The translations under genes and the position numbers were made by a program. Shown here piece after piece: positions 7,444-59,182 of a stretch of 62,051 nucleotides of DNA. The stretch covers positions 1-62,051 of IMG/VR virus record IMGVR_UViG_3300020220_000046. The stretch is one strand, 5' to 3'. The first letter of the stretch is position 1. Every line of letters begins with the position of its first letter. Below the pieces are notes generated by a model that was not told where the DNA came from, ran no database searches, and saw only the letters and a program-made list of their open reading frames with translations. The stretch comes from a virus.

Positions 7444-8130
7444 TTAAAAGAACCCTCCGAGGTCGATTTCTGTCATTGCAGTTGGGCTGGAAAAAGTACC
7501 CAATCCTTGAATATTTAAGGAGGCGGAAATAATTTGAGCTCCGATTAAGTTTTCAACTACTTTCATTGCTCCCGATACAATTAATGATTCTGATGCTGGG
7601 TTATTCTTTTGAACCAAGGTTGTTATTCCCTCAACAATAAGGTCACCTTTAATTGTTGTCGCACCACTCATGGTAATCATAGAACCATCGTCAATGATTC
7701 TTGAATCTTCTAATGTAGTACCATTACCATTTAATTTTTGAAGGTGGTTTGTGGTTCCGGACATACTAACTAAAGTAATGGTTTGCTCGGAACCTAAGGG
7801 ACCGGCAATCCATCTATCATTAATTGAATCCCATAAAAGACTACCTGACACAAGGGTCGGAGCTGTTGGGTCTTTCACCAATAAGCCACCGAAAGCATTT
7901 GCTGTCCCGTTTAATTCGATAATATTATCGCCAAGGCTAATTGTATTTGATTCAATTATGGTTGTTGTACCATGAACAGTAAGATTACCCCCGATGTCTA
8001 AAGAACCGGAAATATCCATATCCTTTACGTAAATTCCATCTAGGGGGAAAGGGTCACTACCCAAAACCACCGTTGTACCCGAAGGTGGTACGGTATTTAT
8101 TTGGGTCCAATTAATCTGCTGTAATGCCAT
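7444..8130 (-). CDS. Tail fibre protein, paralogue of the long fibre's distal part
   Basis: 228 residues. The central block (SLGDNIIELNGTANAFGG, then SLLWDSINDRWIAG) parallels ELDDNIIRLNA...SLVWDSQNDYWMF in the adjacent 648-residue fibre, so the two share a duplicated module. The flanks are fibre-like (SGSLDIGGNLTVHGTTT; SGATTIKGDLIVEGITT). The end, MTEIDLGGFF, is short and has no obvious tip domain, so it may be a proximal or connector fibre. The leader has a 7-bp inverted repeat abutting the ATG and an ATAAATAT element 21 bases upstream. Confidence 0.68.
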   Translation of the reverse strand: MALQQINWTQINTVPPSGTTVVLGSDPFPLDGIYVKDMDISGSLDIGGNLTVHGTTTIIESNTISLGDNIIELNGTANAFGGLLVKDPTAPTLVSGSLLWDSINDRWIAGPLGSEQTITLVSMSGTTNHLQKLNGNGTTLEDSRIIDDGSMITMSGATTIKGDLIVEGITTLVQKNNPASESLIVSGAMKVVENLIGAQIISASLNIQGLGTFSSPTAMTEIDLGGFF

Positions 8131-27233: not shown

Positions 27234-28172
27234 CTAATCTAATTTAAATTCAGGATACTCTATAAGGTTACCCTGAAGGTCGGCGATATCTTTATCTTTT
27301 GGTAATTTAACAATATAAACCTTACCCATTAGGTTTCCACAATTGATTTTGTGATATAATCTCTCCGCATCGCCCCAAGCGTCTCCATCCAAAATAATTG
27401 TTAAACTATCTGCGTTTTCATAAACTTTTTTGAATAGTAAATCACCAATATACTTACCCAACATTGGTATAGAATTGGGTAAAAATATGGAATCAAATAC
27501 ACCCTCAACCAAGCATACTCTTTTTTTCCAATCAATCAAGTGTTCATTCCATATAATATTCTCTTTTTGTACGTCAGGGTTTTTATATTTCATCTTAGTT
27601 CTCGACAAATATGAACGTGCAATGAAATAATTGACATACTTGCTCTCATCATATGAAGGTATAATTATTCTATTTGCGTATGGACCATCATAACAGAATC
27701 CGATATTATATTTTTGAATCATCTCTTCATTGATGTTTCTACTTTTAAGATACCCAAACGCTTGTTTGTGGTGATGAGTAAGTTTTAGACCGGGTGACAC
27801 ATCTAATATTGGTATAAACTCTTTTGGTAATCGTATAATTTTCTTTACATTTTGTGCATATTCAATATCTTCCGGCTTTAAAAGTTCATATCTTTTAATG
27901 TGTTTTTGTGTCCCATATTTTTTTATTAGTTTGTGTAAGGACCCGTGTGTTTCGTGTGTTTCCGCACATGACCAACATTTAAAAACACCTCTTTTATAGT
28001 TTATTTCAAGGTTACCTTTACCATCACCACGCTCAAGTCCTTTAATGTCATATGAACATACAGGACAATCAAAAGATATCTGACCTTTGTAATCATTGTG
28101 CATACGATAATCACCAAGGATATCCTCGATGATTTCAATTATTGGTTTGTATTCCGCAGACACAGATGACAT
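27234..28172 (-). CDS. DnaG-like DNA primase (zinc finger plus Toprim)
   Basis: 312 residues from ATG at 28172. The N-terminal zinc finger has Cys36, Cys39 (CPVC) and Cys66, Cys69 (CWSC). The Toprim core follows: VCLVEGVFDSIFLPN (motif with E), LTIILDGDAWGDAERLYHK (DxD-like) and the end KDKDIADLQGN. It synthesises primers with the gp41-like helicase of this phage. Compact for primases, like T4 gp61. Upstream lies the structured intergenic RNA and terminator; downstream the RecB-type gene. Confidence 0.85.
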   Translation of the reverse strand: MSSVSAEYKPIIEIIEDILGDYRMHNDYKGQISFDCPVCSYDIKGLERGDGKGNLEINYKRGVFKCWSCAETHETHGSLHKLIKKYGTQKHIKRYELLKPEDIEYAQNVKKIIRLPKEFIPILDVSPGLKLTHHHKQAFGYLKSRNINEEMIQKYNIGFCYDGPYANRIIIPSYDESKYVNYFIARSYLSRTKMKYKNPDVQKENIIWNEHLIDWKKRVCLVEGVFDSIFLPNSIPMLGKYIGDLLFKKVYENADSLTIILDGDAWGDAERLYHKINCGNLMGKVYIVKLPKDKDIADLQGNLIEYPEFKLD

Positions 28173-28213
28173 ATGGAATAATATAAGAAAAAAAAGTGAA
28201 AAAACAAACGAGC

Positions 28214-28247
28214 AAAAAAAGGACGGGGGTTACACCGTGCCCCCGCC
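28214..28247 (-). terminator. Strong intrinsic terminator at the end of the candidate RNA
   Basis: On the minus strand a GC-rich stem (GGCGGGGG...CCCCCGTCC, about 8 pairs including one wobble, loop of ten bases) is followed by seven T's (28214-28220 on the complement). It ends transcription entering from the resolvase gene or from the RNA candidate, just before the primase start at 28172. Confidence 0.85.
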
Positions 28248-28345
28248 TATACGGCTCCACCATTGTTACCAGTATATCCTGGCAACAAATATTTCAGGTT
28301 TTTGGGTTGGTTGACCAACCACGTATATTTCTATACGTCCCGTAC
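28214..28345 (-). ncRNA. Candidate structured RNA of four consecutive hairpins
   Basis: Between the resolvase stop and the primase start, minus-strand sequence folds into: an ACGTATA/TATACGT stem with a GAAA loop (28321-28338); a directly adjacent GGTTGG/CCAACC stem (28305-28320); a TTGTTGCCAG/CTGGTAACAA stem with one G-T pair (28263-28288); and the terminator stem. GC content is well above the surrounding sequence. A sigma70-like promoter precedes it. Its arrangement is like a small independent RNA or a leader of the primase message. It has no open frame of note. Folding was done by eye. Confidence 0.55.
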
Positions 28346-28352
28346 TTAAATA

Positions 28353-28380
28353 AATATAATTAAAATTTTTTTAAAATCAA
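28353..28380 (-). promoter_or_regulatory. Sigma70-like promoter in front of the structured RNA
   Basis: On the minus strand TTGATT (28375-28380), a 16-base spacer and TATATT (28353-28358) lie about seven bases before the G that would begin the RNA. The -10 region overlaps a TATTTAT element (28351-28357), the same element found upstream of many genes here. The -35 overlaps the last codons of the resolvase gene. Confidence 0.45.
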
Positions 28381-28985
28381 TAATGTTTTGTGGTTTTTTG
28401 CATATTAACATATCCTATGACCGCGGTTGCTGCGTCACTCATATCATAATTTTCTTTTTTTAAGTTACCTGTTTTACCATATAACCATTTTATTTCAGGA
28501 CAAACTTCGTTTACGTGTTCCCATATGATATGTTTTTTGTCTATATCTTTTGGTAGTCCACCAAATAGTACATTTTTTCCTTTATCGTTTTGTCCAACTA
28601 AACTTGGAAACGCAAATTTTCTTGCATTGTATGTGGAAATAAATATTGGTATAACACCCAATACATCATAACACGCCCTTAATATCAAAGTGTTGTATCT
28701 TAAAAGTGTACCAATCGTATAGATATTGTTTGATTGTAATAATGGTTCCTCAATTACCACTTCAGTAATTCCAACATCTTTATAATTTTCTATATGCTTT
28801 TTAAACGCATCTGATTTTTTTACCAACTCTTCAATCTTCTCTTCGGGTTGTGGTTTTATTTTGGGTGAAAAGTGGGTCAATTCCAATAGTTTAGAAGAAT
28901 TGATATCAAACAAAGCCCATCCTATTGTTTTTGTAGAAATATCTAACCCCAAAATTTTTGGGGCATTTTTTAATTTTAAACTCAT
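28377..28985 (-). CDS. RuvC-like Holliday junction resolvase
   Basis: 202 residues with an RNase H fold: KILGLDISTKTIGWALFD (Asp15), a middle EVVIEEP with the acidic residue, and YDMSDAATAVIGY supplying the final Asp. The NARKFAFPSL helix and TLLRYNTLIL resemble phage and organelle RuvC relatives. It would cleave Holliday junctions and branched DNA before packaging, the role of T4 gp49 by a different enzyme family. A separate message likely ends at the terminator beyond its stop. Confidence 0.78.
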   Translation of the reverse strand: MSLKLKNAPKILGLDISTKTIGWALFDINSSKLLELTHFSPKIKPQPEEKIEELVKKSDAFKKHIENYKDVGITEVVIEEPLLQSNNIYTIGTLLRYNTLILRACYDVLGVIPIFISTYNARKFAFPSLVGQNDKGKNVLFGGLPKDIDKKHIIWEHVNEVCPEIKWLYGKTGNLKKENYDMSDAATAVIGYVNMQKTTKHY

Positions 28986-31201: not shown

Positions 31202-31984
31202 TTATAGAGATAGGCAATCTCCGTCAATTGTACAATTTGTAAGCTCATTTGTCCAACTAAGTGGTGATGGGCAATCAATTAAAATATTATTTTGTACACA
31301 TACAGGTGCTGGGTACAAACCTCCTGGATTTACACAAATAAATGCAGTAAATGTCCCGTTACCATTATCATAAGTAAAAAGATTACTTATCAAATTGGTG
31401 ATTGTTCCTCCAGAACATGGTGAATATCTAACATATAGGTCAAAAGGTAATTGAGCTGTAGTATATGTCATGCTAAAACAAATGCATGGTGTTGTTGGTG
31501 TATTAGTTAAGGTTATTGTAGGTGTATTTGTGGCTGTTAATGTTGGACTATTTGTTGGTGTTAAAGTTTGTGTATTTGTGGCTGTTAATGTTGGGGTATT
31601 TGTTGAGGTGGCGGTTGGTGTTTGAGTATTTGTTGCAGTGACAGTTGGGGTTGGAGTATTTGTTGCACCAACACCATAATCACAACATTCATCAAGGTTT
31701 ACTTTAAATACCTGTTCACAACAACCAATACAAATCATTTTAACATATACTTCAAGTAATGTTGGAGTCAATCCTGATAGGTTTATGCTACCTCCTGTTA
31801 TCGATGTAAATGGTGTTGCACCTGTTATTGTATTTTCTGTTAAACCCGTATATACCGCACAATCGGTATAATCTGAACCCGAATTTAAATGTATCAGTAC
31901 CCCTTTTGGTGTTGCGGTATCAGGTACACAAGGTCCGGGTGTATTTGTTGGTGTACTTGTTAAAGTAGGCGTACTAGTGGGCAT
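31202..31984 (-). CDS. Thr-Pro-repeat (mucin-like) virion protein with Cys-rich domains
   Basis: 260 residues. A short [14 protein letters not shown] start is followed by a beta domain with paired cysteines (VKMICIGCCEQVFKVNLDEC), a T-x-T-x repeat tract of about 60 residues, and a second Cys-rich domain (CICFSMTYTTAQLPFDLYV; VCVQNNILIDCPSPLSW). No signal peptide. Its repeats and domain plan match the next three genes, so the four form one family. Likely a decorating or adhesive virion protein; the host target is unknown. A TATTTAT element lies 19 bases upstream. Confidence 0.62.
   Translation of the reverse strand: MPTSTPTLTSTPTNTPGPCVPDTATPKGVLIHLNSGSDYTDCAVYTGLTENTITGATPFTSITGGSINLSGLTPTLLEVYVKMICIGCCEQVFKVNLDECCDYGVGATNTPTPTVTATNTQTPTATSTNTPTLTATNTQTLTPTNSPTLTATNTPTITLTNTPTTPCICFSMTYTTAQLPFDLYVRYSPCSGGTITNLISNLFTYDNGNGTFTAFICVNPGGLYPAPVCVQNNILIDCPSPLSWTNELTNCTIDGDCLSL
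31486..31668 (-). repeat. T-x-T-x repeat tract (Thr at alternate positions)
   Basis: Consecutive dipeptides of Thr with Ala, Asn, Pro, Leu, Gln or Ser (unit such as TATNTPTL). At DNA level blocks like TTAATGTTGG and GTATTTGT recur on the plus strand. Confidence 0.8.
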
Positions 31985-32071
31985 TTGCTATTAATATATT
32001 AGATAAATAGTTATTTGTAAATTTTATTAAAAAATTAATAATATCAAGGTCCAGATGTGGCTTACTAGAAA

Positions 32072-32869
32072 CTAACAACTTCCTAAAACTATAATATTTC
32101 CTGAACCGCCCGTTTGTACAACGGTTCCTGTTTCAGCACATATTGTAATGCCACCTGCACCAACGGTCTGCGTGAAGAATGAACCACCGCAATCAAACCA
32201 TTCAATACTTATAGATGGAGTTCCTACCACATAATAGTAATTACAAGCAATAGACGTAGTTGGTGTTGGTGTATTTGTAGGTGTTTGTGTTGGCGTCTCA
32301 ATTTGGGTTGGATTTTCAGTATTTGTAGGTGTTAGTGTTGGAGTACTTGTTAGTGTTGGTTCTTCAGATGTTAGTGTTGGAGTACTTGTTAGTGTTGGTG
32401 TATTTGTAGCTGTAAGTGTTGGCGTCTCAGTTTGGGTTGGAGTCGGAGTTTCAGTATTTGTTGGTGTCGGTGTATTTGTTGTCGTAGTCGTTGGAGTTTC
32501 GGATGGTGTACCTGTAGGTGTATTACTTGGTGTTTGCGTTGATGTAGGTGTTGGTGTAGTGGAAACAGATATACAATCATCACATCTTAAATCAACCAAG
32601 ACAACTTGGTATCCTCCCTGTAATTTTGGTGTACTTGTTGGTACAGAATTAATATGATTATCACAATGTTCGATAAACAGATAAACGTGTGTATATGTAC
32701 TATCAACACTTAAACTAACTGTATATCCAGAAATATAGGATGCCGATACTGTACTAACAAATGTTGCAGTATTAATATCATGTGTTGTTCCCGAAAAAAC
32801 ATCAAAGTTTGTACAAGGTGTTTTACTTGTAAATTTTGATATTTGAACTTGATATTGTAAGTTTGGCAT
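32072..32869 (-). CDS. Thr-Pro-repeat (mucin-like) virion protein
   Basis: 265 residues. An N-terminal beta domain ([37 protein letters not shown]) with paired Cys (DLRCDDC) leads into a T-x-T-x tract of about 105 residues, including an odd [14 protein letters not shown] insertion. A C-terminal domain ([35 protein letters not shown]) with Cys ends it. Same architecture as its neighbours. It could be a tail-tip adhesin. The SEE insertion is shared with the 2375-residue gene, pointing to exchange between repeats. Confidence 0.62.
32250..32566 (-). repeat. T-x-T-x repeat tract with SEE insertion
   Basis: Thr alternates with Pro, Asn, Leu, Ser, Ala, Gln and Glu; a TSEEPTL block interrupts it around 32355. 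The same DNA block recurs at about 34145 in another gene. Confidence 0.8.
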
Positions 32870-32890
32870 ACGTTTTTTTATTTTTATTTA

Positions 32891-33643
32891 TTAACATCCA
32901 CTTCCTAAAAGACATTCAATTTCTACGCTTAACCCTGTTGAATGATATATGTACGTATTAACAAGTGGTTGATATGTGAAAAAGCCAAGAAATGATGTAT
33001 TCAAAGACGATGTGGTATAAATCGCAGTGGTACTATCTAATAAGTTAGTTACATTACAATCTGTATAAACAGTTGTTGGTGTGGTATCTATACATTGACA
33101 AACCCCTCCACTACATGTTGACGAACAAACACCAATTGTCCATGCTTTGTACGCACAAGTTTCAGTGGGTGTACTAGTTAGGGTTATTGTGGGTGTACTT
33201 GTTAAAGTAGGCGCACTAGTTTGAGTTGGGGTTTGTGTTGTACCCAATGTTGGGGTATTTGTTAATGTAATAGTTGGGGTATTTGTTAATGTAATAGTTG
33301 GGGTATTTGTTAATGTAATAGTTGGTGTTGGAGTTGGTGTAGTGCCTGTTAAACATATAACATCAATATTAAAACATATTGTGTCATAACACGAAAATGC
33401 TTTACTATCATTTGTATAAATGTTTTTTATAATGTATCGACCTGTTGTTTGGTCAATCATTTTTATCCAATATTGAGTATCAAACGTTAATCCTGAAATT
33501 TCAACAGTGGATGAGGTTAAACCACTCGCATGTAATGTGAATGTTGTATTATCATATTCAGGCCAAGGATTTACACCACTTTTGTACCTTATGGTGTAGG
33601 GTCCATCTGAAACTATATTATATAATCGAACATTTAATCCCAT
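32891..33643 (-). CDS. Thr-Pro-repeat (mucin-like) virion protein with FN3-like start
   Basis: 250 residues. The N-terminal 100 residues look like a fibronectin type III or similar beta sandwich (MGLNVRLYNIVSDGPYTIRY; ISGLTFDTQYWIKMIDQTTG), then a short Cys pair, a T-x-T-x tract of about 60 residues with three exact copies of TITLTNTP, and a Cys-rich C-terminal domain (CSSTCSGGVCQC). It begins nine bases after a TATTTAT element. Like its neighbours it is probably displayed on the virion. Confidence 0.62.
   Translation of the reverse strand: MGLNVRLYNIVSDGPYTIRYKSGVNPWPEYDNTTFTLHASGLTSSTVEISGLTFDTQYWIKMIDQTTGRYIIKNIYTNDSKAFSCYDTICFNIDVICLTGTTPTPTPTITLTNTPTITLTNTPTITLTNTPTLGTTQTPTQTSAPTLTSTPTITLTSTPTETCAYKAWTIGVCSSTCSGGVCQCIDTTPTTVYTDCNVTNLLDSTTAIYTTSSLNTSFLGFFTYQPLVNTYIYHSTGLSVEIECLLGSGC
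33160..33348 (-). repeat. T-x-T-x tract with exact 24-base tandem repeat
   Basis: Within 33240-33325 a 24-base unit encoding TITLTNTP is repeated three times exactly (plus-strand core GGGGTATTTGTTAATG). Exact copies make it prone to length change. Confidence 0.75.
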
Positions 33644-33670: not shown

Positions 33671-36600
33671 TTATATACAATGTCCAACAGCGGCGGTTAT
33701 GTACACAGTTGAATTGCAAGGTATATCCACATCATAAAACACAACTGTACTTCCACCAGTATTCAACGGATAAAAACATTGTATTCCATAATTAATGGCA
33801 ATATTTTGTCCAGCTAAACACGGACCATAGTCAATTTCAACCGTTACATTTGAACCATTAACATTGGATGTGAAGAACCCAACCCCATCACCTTGCCCAA
33901 TCGGGAAATTAGCACCACTTGAGTAAGTTATATTATTGGAATTGAATCTAACTCCGAGTATAGTAACATTATTACTATTTTGTGTAGTTACCTCAACAAA
34001 TGCAAATGGACAAGAAAATGTACTAGGTGTACTAGTTAATGTTGGTGTTAGTGTTGGTGTATTTGTTAGTGTTGGTGTGTTTGTAGCAGTTAAAGTTGGT
34101 GTATTTGTAGCAGTTAATGTTGGTGTATTTGTTGCAGTTAATGTTGGTTCTTCAGATGTTAGTGTTTGAGTACTTGTTAGTGTTGGTGTATTTGTAGCAG
34201 TTAATGTTGGTGTAGCAGTTAATGTTGGAGTACTTGTTAGTGTTGGTGTATTTGTAGCAGTTAATGTTTGAGTACTTGTTAAAGTAGGTGTATTAGTAGC
34301 CGTTAACGTTGGCGTATTTGTTGCAGTACTTGTACTTGTTAAAGTAGGCGTATTTGTCAATGTAGGTGTATTTGTAGCTGTAAGTGTTGGAGTATTTGTT
34401 GCAGTACTTGTACTAGTTAGTGTTGGTGTATTTGTGGCTGTAAGTGTTGGAGTATTTGTTGCAGTACTTGTACTAGTTAGTGTTGGTGTATTTGTAGCCG
34501 TTAACGTTGGCGTATTTGTTGCGGTACTTGTGCTGGTTAATGTTGGGGTTTGAGTTGCTGTAAGTGTCGGAGTCTCAGTTAATGTTGGCGTATTTGTTGC
34601 AGTAAGAGTGGGTGTATTGGTTGCAGTACTTGTACTAGTTAATGTTGGCGTATTTGTTGCAGTTAGAGTAGGTGTATTGGTTGCAGTACTTGTACTAGTT
34701 AATGTTGGGGTTTGAGTTGCAGTTAGAGTAGGTGTATTGGTTGCAGTACTTGTACTAGTTAATGTTGGAGTATTGGTTGCGGTAAGTGTCGGAGTCTCAG
34801 TTAGTGTTGGAGTATTGGTTGCGGTAAGTGTCGGAGTCTCAGTTAGTGTTGGTGTATTTGTGGCAGTTAATGTTGGAGTATTTGTTGCAGTACTTGTGCT
34901 AGTTAAAGTAGGTGAATTTGTTGCAGTAAGAGTGGGTGTATTTGTGGCAGTACTTGTACTTGTTAAAGTAGGCGTATTTGTTGCAGTTAATGTTGGAGAG
35001 TTGGTTGGTGTTAATGTTGGTGTTTCAGTTAGTGTTTGAGTATTAGTCGGCGTTAATGTTGGCGTTTCAGTTAACGTAGGTGTACTAGTTGCTGTAAGGG
35101 TCGGTGTTTTAGTTAATGTTGGAGTATTAGTTGAACTTAATGTAGGGGTATTGGTTGCGGTTAATGTTGGTGTATTTGTTGCAGTAAGAGTGGGTGTTTG
35201 AGTACTTGTTGATGTAACAGTAGCGGTTGGTGTGGGCGTTGGACAATCTGTTGAACTATTTGCAATTGCCAAACCACTTCCGTTATCTTCAACAACAAAT
35301 AGTATTGAAGTGCTTGGTGGGTTTACATAAAAGATGGTTGATGACGAATTTGTGATAAGTTGTAAATCTGCAATTGTGTATGGATTTGTTGCTGTGTTAT
35401 CTTCGTATAATATTTCACCAACAGATAAATCGTCTTGTGCATAAATTGTTATAGAATTTTGACAAGAACATGCACTACTAATTGTAATATCAATACAATA
35501 GATTGCTCCATCTAATAAATTAGTAAGAGTTGGAGTATTGGTTGCGGTAAGGGTTGGTGTCTCCGTTAATGTAGGTGTATTCGTAGGTGTTTGAGTTTGA
35601 GTCTCTGTAGGGGTATTAGTTGCCGTTAATGTAGGTGTACTTGTTGCAGTTAACGTCGGAGTATTGGTTGGTGTTTCGGTTGGTGTACTTGTTGCAGTTA
35701 ACGTCGGAGTATTTGTTGATGTACTTGTTGCAGTTAACGTCGGAGTATTTGTTGATGTACTTGTTGCAGTTAACGTCGGAGTGCTTGTACTAGTTAAAGT
35801 AGGTGTATTGGTTGCAGTAAGAGTGGGTGTAGCGGTAAGGGTTGGAGTTTCAGTTGAAGTTAATGTTGGTGTATTTGTTGCTGTAAGGGTTGGAGTTTCA
35901 GTTGAAGTTAACGTAGGTGTTTCTGTTAACGTTAGTGTATTTGTGGCTGTTAATGTAGGTGTTTCAGTATTTGTAGGTGTAAGTGTTGGTGTATTTGTTG
36001 CAGTGCTTGTACTAGTTAAAGTAGGTGTATTGGTTGCAGTAAGAGTGGGTGTATTTGTTGCAGTGCTTGTACTAGTTAGTGTTGGGGTTTGAGTTGCAGT
36101 AAGAGTGGGTGTATTTGTTGCGGTACTTGTGCTGGTTAAAGTAGGTGTATTAGTAGATGTAAGTGTTGGCGTATTTGTTGCGGTACTTGTGCTGGTTAAA
36201 GTAGGTGTATTTGTTGCAGTGCTTGTACTAGTTAAAGTAGGTGTATTAGTAGCTGTAAGTGTTGGTGTATTTGTTGCAGTGCTTGTACTAGTTAAAGTAG
36301 GTGTATTGGTTGCAGTAAGAGTAGGTGTATTTGTTGCGGTACTTGTACTAGTTAAAGTAGGTGTACTTGTGGCTGTTAGTGTATTAGTTGATGTTGGCGT
36401 ACTTGTGGATGTAAGAGTTATTGTTGGAGTACTAGTATAGGTTGATGTATTCGTGTTTGTTAATGTTGGAGTACTTGTTGATGTGATAGTAGGAGTTGGT
36501 GTTAGTGTTTGTGTGCTAGTTGGTGTGGGTGTGTTTGTGGGAGATTGGTCGCAATCAAATGGTGATTCAGATAAATCATTATTGGTTGGTGGTGTTGCAC

Positions 36601-39600
36601 AATGTACGGGGTCACTATAATATTGACCTAAATCAAAATCAATATTTGGATGTTTATTGTATAGATGTTTCATCAAAATTTGTTCATTTGAATTACCATC
36701 AAATACAACAATAAATGTATCAGTCAATGGTGAACCATTTTTTTGAACATTTAAGTTAAAATATAAACCAGTGTCACAATAATTTAGGTCAACCGCTAAA
36801 ACTTCTATTGGATAACCATATTGGTTAATTAGAAAATCTCCTTTATCATATAATTCTTTGGAGTGGTCGCAGCAAGGTTCGATGAAATCAATCGGTCTTA
36901 TTTGTAATTCTTCAGGGAATCTATCATCAAAGTGATATGTTCCATTCGTTACAGAACCGAAATTCTCAATAAATTTATTTGTATAAACCCTTAATTGAGT
37001 TGTAGGTAAAACTTCAAATATTTCAATACTATTTGTTGTTGTTTCACCTGTAATTCTATTTTTCTTAACAGAACCAAGACATTCTTTATCAGTAACTAAA
37101 AGTTTTTCATACGAATACGTAAATGAATATCCACTTTGAGATGCATTTTGGAATTGTTGATTCGTAAATCCTGAACAAGGAAGATAATTTGCACTTAAAA
37201 TGTATTCACCTACTTGTAAACCATATACAGATTTTTCTACAATCGTACCACCTGTTAAATATGAATTAATTTGTGAACTTGTTGTTGAACTATTAATTGT
37301 TAAACCTGAAGGAACCACTAAAACTATTGAACTATCTTTTAAACCATAATTAAAGTTTGATTTATACTCAACTTTTGGTTGGATGGTATATCCAGTATAA
37401 TTGTCACAAAACGTTGCTCCTGATATTTCAGATATAGTATTTGAACCTTGATATCCTTGAAGTACAAATAGTTCTGTGTGACTCTTTCCGCTTGGCATTG
37501 GACATGGGTCGTGTTCTATTTTAGCTTGTAATCCTTCTATCTTGAATTTAACTTCGTTGTTTGCGGCATCAATAATATTAAAATCTATTACATCAAATTC
37601 AGTAACTCCAGTTAGTTTAAATTTACAATCATACCCCGCAACTTTTTCAATGTAAACGTCAGCATTTTGACTATGACCACTTGTACAATTTGCATAAATG
37701 TAAAACGGCCATGTGTGATTTTTTTGAACCCCGAATTGAGCACCAATAACATCAATATAGATGTCACTAACCATAATACACGATGCTGGCTCTTCACAAT
37801 AAAATTCACCATTACCACTAACTTGTACACTTAATCTATCATTTGATTTTATTGTCTGATAATCCGCCTCAAATCTATAATCAAAATAATCTTTTACCGA
37901 ACAATTCCCAATACCATATTTTATGGATGAAAACTTAATCATTTCTTCACCATTTTCATCTGTAAAGATTTCATAACTTACCATTGGTAAAGTTTCGGTT
38001 ACATATGTTTGTCCGGTTGTTCCTGTGAATGGTGCGTAAGCATAGTAACCTGAACCATATCTTGATATTGTTATTGAACCAATAAGATTAGTCAACGCTT
38101 CAACCCATAGTTGTTTAATTTTAACAATATCAGGTTCTAAATAATCTTTATAATCACAAATAAGTGCAAGATTTACAGGGTCATTACTCACTAAGTCGGT
38201 ACATCCCGTCATTGGGAATGGGTCATATAACTTAGCACTATTTGTTGTATTTGATGTACCGCTAACCACAACAGTCATTCCTGTTGTTAAACCTGTATAT
38301 GATGGACCACCATAAATAACCCCATCAATTTCGATTATTGGATAGTATGTTACACCAGTCAAGTTTATTAATCCTCTAAAATTATTTTCTTCACCGAGTA
38401 AAGTTTCAACGTCTTCTTCAATTGCGGTTTCAAAATCGGGATATAAGTCCTCGATAAATTCCATTGGTTGGCAATCAAATATGTATGGATATTTCGGTCT
38501 ACCAAATAAATTGTTTTCTATTAGATTACCTCCTGTCCACAGTGTAGTTGCGGGAACCAATTGTTCTACTAATTGAACCCAATAAGGGCTGATTTTATTT
38601 ACAAATTCAGCAGCATCAATAAACGTATATGGTTTGAATGAAGTTTGAGAAAAATAATCTCTATAGATATCTTCAAGAACAATATAATTCTTTTTATATC
38701 TAATTGTATGAGAGTTCTTTATTACTTTGTGAATAAAATTGTTTGTAAATTGTGCAAACGTTACCCCTGTTTGTGGTGATAATAAATTTGTTGAACCGAA
38801 TGAAATTTCTAAATCTCTACTTTTTCTAAATAAATCAAAATTAATCGCGTTAGACGCTGAAATATGAATATTAATATTTTTTCTATTCAAAATTAAAGAC
38901 GAACCATCCAATACATCGTGAGCTTTTGTATTGTCAATATCTGTTTGTAAACCATAACCCGTATCTAATCCGGGTAGTTTTCTGAACACGTTAAAATAAT
39001 CCTCACCATAAGTAAAAGGTTTATTTTTTGTTTTAATTGTTTTTGTTCTACCAGTGAGAATTGAGTTTTCGGTATCTATAATCGTTGGTGAGCGGTGGTC
39101 TAATGTAATATCATACCATCCCGCACCTTTTTGGAAGAAAATGTCTTCAGTAAGACTAAACGCTTTTCTTGGTAACCCTGTGTCAGGGTCAACAGGATAA
39201 CCTTCTCTATCAAATCCTGTTGAGCCAGTGGTGGTAATCTTAGTATATGTGTACCCTGTTGTATTAAATTGACCCGTTATAAAAGTTTTTTCTCCAACAA
39301 TAACATTGTATATGTCTTGTTCTAAATCAAAACTCACGGGCATTGATGTTACTTGATAGACATACTCATTAATTTTTATTAATGGTTCGGGAGCTCCTAA
39401 GAATTTTAAGAAGAACTCAATAGATGCTCTTGTTCCTTTTGATTTAAAGATATATGCAAGATTGACTAATAATCTTCTGTAGAATTCATGTTCGGCATCA
39501 ACTAAATTAAAACCAGTGGATACTCCACCATAAGACGAATCTAAACGAGTATATAATACATCGTCTAATGATTTTTCATCAAATAGATTTGTAGTTGATA

Positions 39601-40798
39601 ACCCGAGATTCTCAGATAAATTCTTTAATAAAATATCGGGTAAGTTATTAATACCATCATAACTCACATTTCTCATGTAAGCAATGTTGTCTATGTATTT
39701 TTTTACTTGGTCAAAACTTTGTCCGTAAAGTTGAAATACACTTTGAGCTCTTTGGTCTGCGGTGTCAAATTCTAATAATTGTGGTGATGTTAAAAATCTA
39801 ACAATTGTGTTTGATTTAAATGTATCAATCTCATCACAAACATCTTTTAAACTTTGTACATATAATTCATAGTCAAGACCATAAATTTGTATGTTCCATC
39901 CATCCCCTAATGTTGGCCAGCTAAACTCAACGTTTTGAATTGTAACCTTTGAACCATCGGGACTATCTCTCGGAATTCTAAAATTTGATGTGTATGTTGG
40001 GCTTGTATCTCTATTGAGTAATGAAGATTCAACATCATCTAATCCATTGTAAAATTCTTCAACAATACCATCATTTGGTCTGATTATAAAGTTTGTTGTA
40101 CTTGTAGAACCTGTAAATGGTTGACCAATTACAACAAAAACTATTTCATTTGAAGAATTTGGCTCTGTATATTGAAATACAGGGTACGATTCGCCATTTA
40201 TATATAAAACATACTTATTGTTTGATGAATATAGATTTCTTAATTCATTTTCACTTGTAGGTTTAATCGCACTATTTGGTTCAGATAAAATAATTCCAAA
40301 TGGATTTGAAACTTTACTTAACTGAATTGTGAATGTTGTTCTGTCTAAACTATTACTATATGAAATATTAAACGCTGAGAATAAGTTCACACCTATAGGA
40401 CTATCGGCAATTACTTGTAATGCTGCGGGGAATTTTTTTATAATTTTGGTAATCGATACCAAAATTCTTTCTCTTAAAGAACCATATAAAGACTTATCTG
40501 CATTTTGTTTATCGTTACGAAATCTTATCGATTTACTTCTTTTGGCCGCAGAACTTGTAGGTTGCTGAGTTGTTACGTCTGTTTTAGTGTCTTCTTTTTT
40601 TATATTATCTAAAGTAAGAAACTCAGAAAATGGATTTTTTCTAAAACTTTTAGAATCTTTATCAGGTATAGTTTTATCAATGTCAAATGAGGTATTAACA
40701 AGCGCCGAACTTCCGTTGGTAATTTGTCTACCAACAAGATTATCATTAAATGTTGCCGCGCCACTTGGCGCTTGGCTTGGTACCTTTCTTTTCGCCAT
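33671..40798 (-). CDS. Giant baseplate/adhesin protein with gpI-like region and two mucin-like tracts
   Basis: 2375 residues. N-terminal part: [20 protein letters not shown], then beta domains. Around residues 330-480 comes a helical gpI-like region: [15 protein letters not shown], then [20 protein letters not shown] and [11 protein letters not shown], matching the ELA-LGL...LYKSKGT...L-x-x-LG pattern of phage tail protein I. More beta domains follow to about residue 1420. Then come a first T-x-T-x tract (about 340 residues), a Cys-containing beta domain of about 95, a second tract (about 400) and a final domain ending ITAAVGHCI. Probably a wedge protein fused to a long flexible arm. Its start overlaps the next gene's stop by one base. 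Confidence 0.65.
34025..35235 (-). repeat. Second, longer mucin-like T-x-T-x repeat tract
   Basis: About 400 residues in which Thr occupies nearly every other position with Ala, Asn, Pro, Leu, Ser, Glu or Gln between. Common longer units are TATNTPTL and [12 protein letters not shown]. The SEE block occurs once near 34145. Confidence 0.85.
35525..36540 (-). repeat. First mucin-like T-x-T-x repeat tract
   Basis: About 340 residues with the same alternate-Thr pattern, separated from the second tract by a globular Cys-containing domain (35240-35525). Exact stretches of tens of bases recur between copies. Confidence 0.85.
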
Positions 40799-59114: not shown

Positions 59115-59182
59115 ATTAATATTTTTTAAAAAGGACTACTCTCAAGGACAAGATGTCCAAGAGAGAGTCCTGTATATTGTTC

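Follow-up and report, generated by a model that had tools for sequence, protein, structure and literature searches.

The DNA analyzed here (the window) comprises the full 62,051 bases of IMG/VR virus record IMGVR_UViG_3300020220_000046. It contains T4-like replication and structural genes encoding gp46/gp47-like SbcC/SbcD, a RuvC-like resolvase, a DnaG-like primase, a DnaB-like helicase, a UvsX-like recombinase, ribonucleotide reductase, and a baseplate wedge protein. A 2375-aa ORF and three smaller ORFs (33671–40798 and 31202–33643, minus strand) are rich in threonine/proline repeats and are probably surface or tail proteins. Elsewhere, a strong hairpin (GGACTCTCTC...GAGAGTAGTCC) lies ahead of a T-run at 59170 on the minus strand. 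The resolvase gene (28377–28985, minus strand; phrog_159, E 8e-8) and the primase gene (27234–28172, minus strand; phrog_47 DNA primase, E 1.4e-36; Pfam DNAG_N, E 6e-7) flank a predicted small RNA of ~132 nt, including its U-run (28214–28345, minus strand), for which we infer a 5′ end at ~28345. The RNA lies outside the resolvase gene, and the primase gene is directly downstream. No tRNA or tmRNA was detected in the resolvase–primase stretch.

A preliminary description of this DNA proposed four consecutive hairpins on the minus strand, and all are present as described between 28345 and 28214. Hairpin 1 (ACGTATA-GAAA-TATACGT, 28321–28338) is abutted by hairpin 2 (GGTTGG-TCAA-CCAACC, 28305–28320), identified from its sequence and pair probabilities. 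Sequence and predicted fold also define hairpin 3 (28263–28288), a 10-bp stem with one G-T pair, TTGTTGCCAG-GATATA-CTGGTAACAA. The fourth is an intrinsic terminator (28214–28247), assigned from sequence and the family alignment described below, with a GC-rich stem (28247–28222), a loop CACGGTGTAA containing the family-invariant GGUGU, and seven T's (28220–28214). The proposed excess of GC over the AT-rich flanks was confirmed (0.42–0.47 at the RNA locus versus ~0.30 around it). A 141-nt stretch folds at −51.4 kcal/mol, compared to −37.0 ± 3.6 kcal/mol for dinucleotide shuffles (z −4.0), and none of 200 shuffles folded as well. The preliminary description overlooked one part of the structure: in the minimum-energy fold, a closing stem formed by GTACGG (28340–28345) and CCGTAT (28249–28254) encloses hairpins 1–3, with pair probabilities of 0.88–0.97 calculated from a single sequence.

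Homologous loci were obtained via the resolvase, via the primase, and via a DNA pattern, and were read directly. In a group of uncultured relatives whose primases are 62–74% identical to the window primase, the gap preceding the primase gene holds a short RNA-like element, with a two-hairpin RNA of 65–75 nt directly upstream of the same gene. Type A members (65–75 nt) are composed of GGACGGGAC, hairpin 1, GUUUGGUUGG, a terminator hairpin with the loop GUGGUGU, and a T-run; their hairpin 1 loops are GNRA-type, UUAAAA, or other sequences. Type B members have a hairpin 1 unrelated to that of type A and a terminator loop of UUGGUGUA or similar. GGTGT is invariant across the alignment of type A and the window and is present in eight of the nine type B sequences, and the terminator is the one part common to all types. 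At two loci (L001 and L002, on the same contigs as L209 and L202, respectively), another gene follows the resolvase and the RNA stays beside the primase, so the RNA accompanies the primase, not the resolvase. Its initial placement between resolvase and primase genes holds for the window, but the association itself is with the primase.

The specificity of this association was evident from a context-free pattern, built solely from the linker, loop, and T-run irrespective of neighboring genes, which found 103 stretches. Among the 80 readable pattern loci, 74 directly precede a primase of this group; the remaining six have neither hairpin 1 nor the terminator stem and look like chance matches. Whole records contain one convincing copy of the RNA each. 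A match at 36169 in G004 (22.9 bits) was not counted as a second copy, as it is missing the GGUGU loop.

Compensatory changes, which the preliminary description had named as the check on homologous intergenic regions, are abundant in both type A and type B. The type A set comprised 17 distinct sequences, with 500 shuffles and slid alignments as controls. In this set, 97.5% of cells were paired, versus 73% in shuffled and at most 52% in slid controls; changes on both sides occurred in 13 of 21 pairs, and the covariation score was 0.62 versus 0.17 for shuffles, none of which (0/500) scored as high. All nine terminator pairs covary around a constant loop. Hairpin 1 has four pairs changed on both sides and 99% of its cells paired; its apical half covaries and its basal half is nearly invariant, with G-U pairs at columns 2–31, 6–27, and 7–26. 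For the nine type B sequences, the covariation score was 0.42 versus 0.21 for shuffles, with a count of further pair types that did not exceed shuffles. Read on the opposite strand, the invariant G-U pairs would turn into A-C mismatches, which identifies the minus strand as the folded, transcribed strand; these pairs also make folding as RNA more likely than folding as DNA. Collectively, the substitution patterns indicate that the element is selected as a folded RNA.

A covariance model (R1) built from type A, with the window excluded from training, matched window hairpin 1 at 28345–28287 (28.3 bits; E 2.8e-5 in 415 kb searched); the window terminator part was matched more weakly (8.9 bits). 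Consistent with the earlier statement that no known family was recognized, a search of the window against Rfam 15 returned no family at the gathering cut-off, and the best match in a permissive search (E 2.2) was far below it. Neither the window region nor a type A RNA had a DNA match in the phage record collection, and the genome collection contained no primase relative and, among the pattern matches read, no family member. No such RNA lies upstream of the Flavobacterium phage immuto primase (34% identity) or of the more distant primases of loci L246–L259 (47–51% identity). A different common block, AAACTTGTGAAGnTTGATTA, lies ahead of the primase genes in L246–L259. No description of the RNA turned up in a search of open-licence literature. 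The RNA represents a real, conserved, and apparently undescribed family of viral small RNAs, and its carriers, as judged from their sequences, are a large group of uncultured T4-like phages comprising dozens of related phages.

The window member departs from type A by ~65 extra nt after GGTTGGT. The first inserted bases, CAACCAACC, pair with GGTTGG, and the later CCGTAT pairs with GTACGG; both strands of the usual basal stem are thereby re-partnered, giving a multi-branch structure that encloses three hairpins (pair probabilities 0.88–1.0, for one sequence). Hairpin 2 accordingly combines a 5′ arm of conserved GGTTGG with a 3′ arm of inserted sequence seen only in the window. No homologue with this insertion, and none carrying hairpin 3, was found among the pattern matches and loci read, and an exact-match search with the hairpin 2 16-mer gave otherwise unrelated readable matches. 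One locus, L519, has the same hairpin 1 as the window followed by GGTTGG (an exact pattern match), and two more pattern scans for close kin of the window form returned L519 only. Of the four hairpins originally described, the family features are thus limited to hairpin 1 and the loop of the terminator; hairpins 2 and 3 belong to the window genome alone.

Upstream of the RNA, the letters of the TTGATT-16-TATATT promoter proposed in the preliminary description are present, but they are better read as a −7 box of the TAnnTTTG type than as an E. coli-type promoter. Flavobacterium sigma-A promoters have a TAnnTTTG −7 element at −12 to −5 (PMC9723704); the corresponding box in the window is TATATTTA (28351–28358, minus strand), and a TATATTT box is located 6–9 nt ahead of the RNA in most distinct homologous loci. 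Given the resemblance of the RNA box to the Flavobacterium element (PMC9723704), the hosts of the RNA-bearing phages are probably Bacteroidota. GGCAAC starts exactly 35 bp before the TATATTT box in at least 20 of the 28 distinct loci, and it can be recognized by inspection in a few further loci, for which the script picked another box. No record tested has more than one copy of the GGCAACTAA...TATATTT arrangement, and the GGCAAC element is absent in the window. The primase has a promoter box of its own, TATATTA in the window (~28179–28185, minus strand; 13 nt before the ATG), and in nearly all RNA-bearing loci a similar motif lies after the terminator, 10–15 nt before the ATG. This position predicts a primase message with a very short leader, for which the RNA promoter would not be needed. 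By sequence motif, the RNA has both its own promoter and an intrinsic terminator, as a phage small RNA should. A separate shared block, TTTATGTAAAAGACTTTAC(A/T)TTTACATG, precedes genes at window position 8130 and at 226505 in G004 and is possibly another promoter class.

The preliminary description offered two interpretations, an independent small RNA or a leader regulating the primase gene. The compensatory changes and the conserved promoter and terminator support this pair of options without fully separating them. The possibility of a regulatory switch was addressed by a duplex test of 17 rows, four of which had been cut at an incorrect GGTGT and were left out for the 5′ arm. Hairpin 1 folds stably by itself, and the duplexes that upstream sequence forms with the terminator arm are weak and lack conservation. 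Some members have a G-rich terminator arm and others a C-rich one, with no matching change in the base of hairpin 1, so there is no conserved antiterminator pairing. Because of this, and because the primase has a separate conserved box, an independent small RNA is favored over a leader. We consider it probable that the RNA is transcribed independently, from its own promoter to its own terminator, and acts in trans as a phage small RNA. In the proposed mechanism, a phage-encoded RNA of a new family would be transcribed independently and terminated intrinsically, and would act through two elements, the GGUGU loop exposed on the terminator hairpin and the hairpin 1 base with its invariant, G-U-rich pairing. 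Through these elements it may pair with a host transcript or bind a protein, supporting phage DNA replication. A more specific proposal is that the RNA is near-universal in a large phage group, is driven by the dedicated GGCAAC/35-bp element, binds host machinery or the phage primase via the GGUGU loop, and so controls the start of phage DNA replication; we regard this as unlikely, but if true it would define a new kind of phage replication-control RNA.

Candidate targets and motifs were also considered. A loop-based search of phage genes found no conserved mRNA site. An endolysin-like gene (window 17162, minus strand) ranked first as a target in the window and in G002, 12th in G004, 247th in G003, and 189th in G006, and was unconvincing once the number of gene families was taken into account. 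Near the endolysin-like gene in G002, a site at 174656 has a very long complement to that genome's own terminator and is its strongest non-self site; a match of this length was seen in G002 alone, it was treated as chance, and the window terminator does not single out the site genome-wide. A G-quadruplex reading was dropped since conservation fails in one of the G tracts (TTTAGTTGG forms).

Several points count against an independent RNA acting in trans: no conserved phage target site was found, the GGCAAC element is lacking in the window, the promoter boxes are assigned by motif, and the strict position ahead of the primase would fit a cis-acting element as well. A cis-acting leader is the main rival reading. 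In such a leader, the upstream promoter would drive the primase gene, and binding of a protein or other factor to hairpin 1 or to the conserved loop would override an attenuator terminator. Promoter, short leader, terminator, and gene form the classic attenuator layout, and every true locus has the RNA immediately ahead of this primase. Given the conserved promoter box between terminator and ATG, the lack of a conserved alternative pairing, and the location of the conserved loop in the terminator hairpin itself, a cis-acting leader is nonetheless rather unlikely. That no conserved mRNA target was found in the phages would also suit a decoy or sponge, an RNA that copies a motif of a host or defense RNA and thereby sequesters a host RNA-binding protein. 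Protein sites often look like the conserved parts, which are a short loop and a helix containing non-standard pairs, but the RNA resembles no Rfam family, and a decoy role appears distinctly unlikely.

A role as a replication-origin element, in which the transcript, an R-loop, or hairpins in single-stranded DNA would give a start site for the adjacent primase, has the appeal that there is one copy per genome, beside the primase. T4 origins couple a promoter and a short transcript to replication. In phage lambda, the pO promoter matters for replication (PMC12197685). Against an origin role, the invariant G-U pairs favor RNA over DNA folding, a primer needs no strong terminator, and GC skew does not turn at the RNA in G002, G004, or G006; G003 has a turn near the RNA, but a strongly skewed stretch adjoins it just upstream. 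We judge an origin element very unlikely. Finally, the sharing of the terminator by all types would be explained if it alone were conserved and the other hairpins had arisen by chance. The covariation of hairpin 1, its invariant base, and the conserved promoter make that explanation hardly tenable.

The RNA is ordinary in kind, as a phage small RNA; what is unusual is to find a fixed position, a promoter element dedicated to the RNA, and conservation of the terminator loop together. Roles are known for few phage small RNAs, and most of the characterized examples encountered in this analysis are from temperate phages of well-studied hosts. The RNA has been retained, always in the same place and with a conserved promoter element and loop, while the primases differ by about one third, and it is therefore a clear candidate for an RNA important in infection. 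A covariance model of the RNA now exists for metatranscriptome searches.

Several known systems share features with the RNA. The T-box antiterminator sequence is AGGGUGGNACCGCG, and the loop region of some members of the RNA family contains AGGGUGGU; unlike in a T-box, only GGUGU is invariant and the loop varies outside it, there is no specifier domain, and Rfam gave no match. Membership in the T-box class, which calls for a specifier loop and the conserved T-box sequence, was rejected. Attenuators and riboswitch leaders likewise place a promoter, a folded RNA, and an intrinsic terminator ahead of a gene, but the primase-RNA has no conserved antiterminator pairing and the primase has its own promoter box. 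PreS (LPR1) of phage lambda is a small RNA of ~88 nt that acts on host dnaN and needs Hfq (PMC12197685). Both are phage-encoded small RNAs linked to DNA replication, but their genomic contexts differ, the primase-RNA being beside the primase in phages of probable Bacteroidota hosts. The OOP RNA of lambdoid phages, a short RNA of the replication region with a promoter of its own, is antisense to cII (PMC12197685). The primase-RNA is also a short RNA with its own promoter in a replication region, but opposite it lie small mechanical ORFs only and no credible gene. PreS and OOP are the nearest functional comparisons for the primase-RNA in the review consulted (PMC12197685), and nothing in this comparison points to a shared origin with either.
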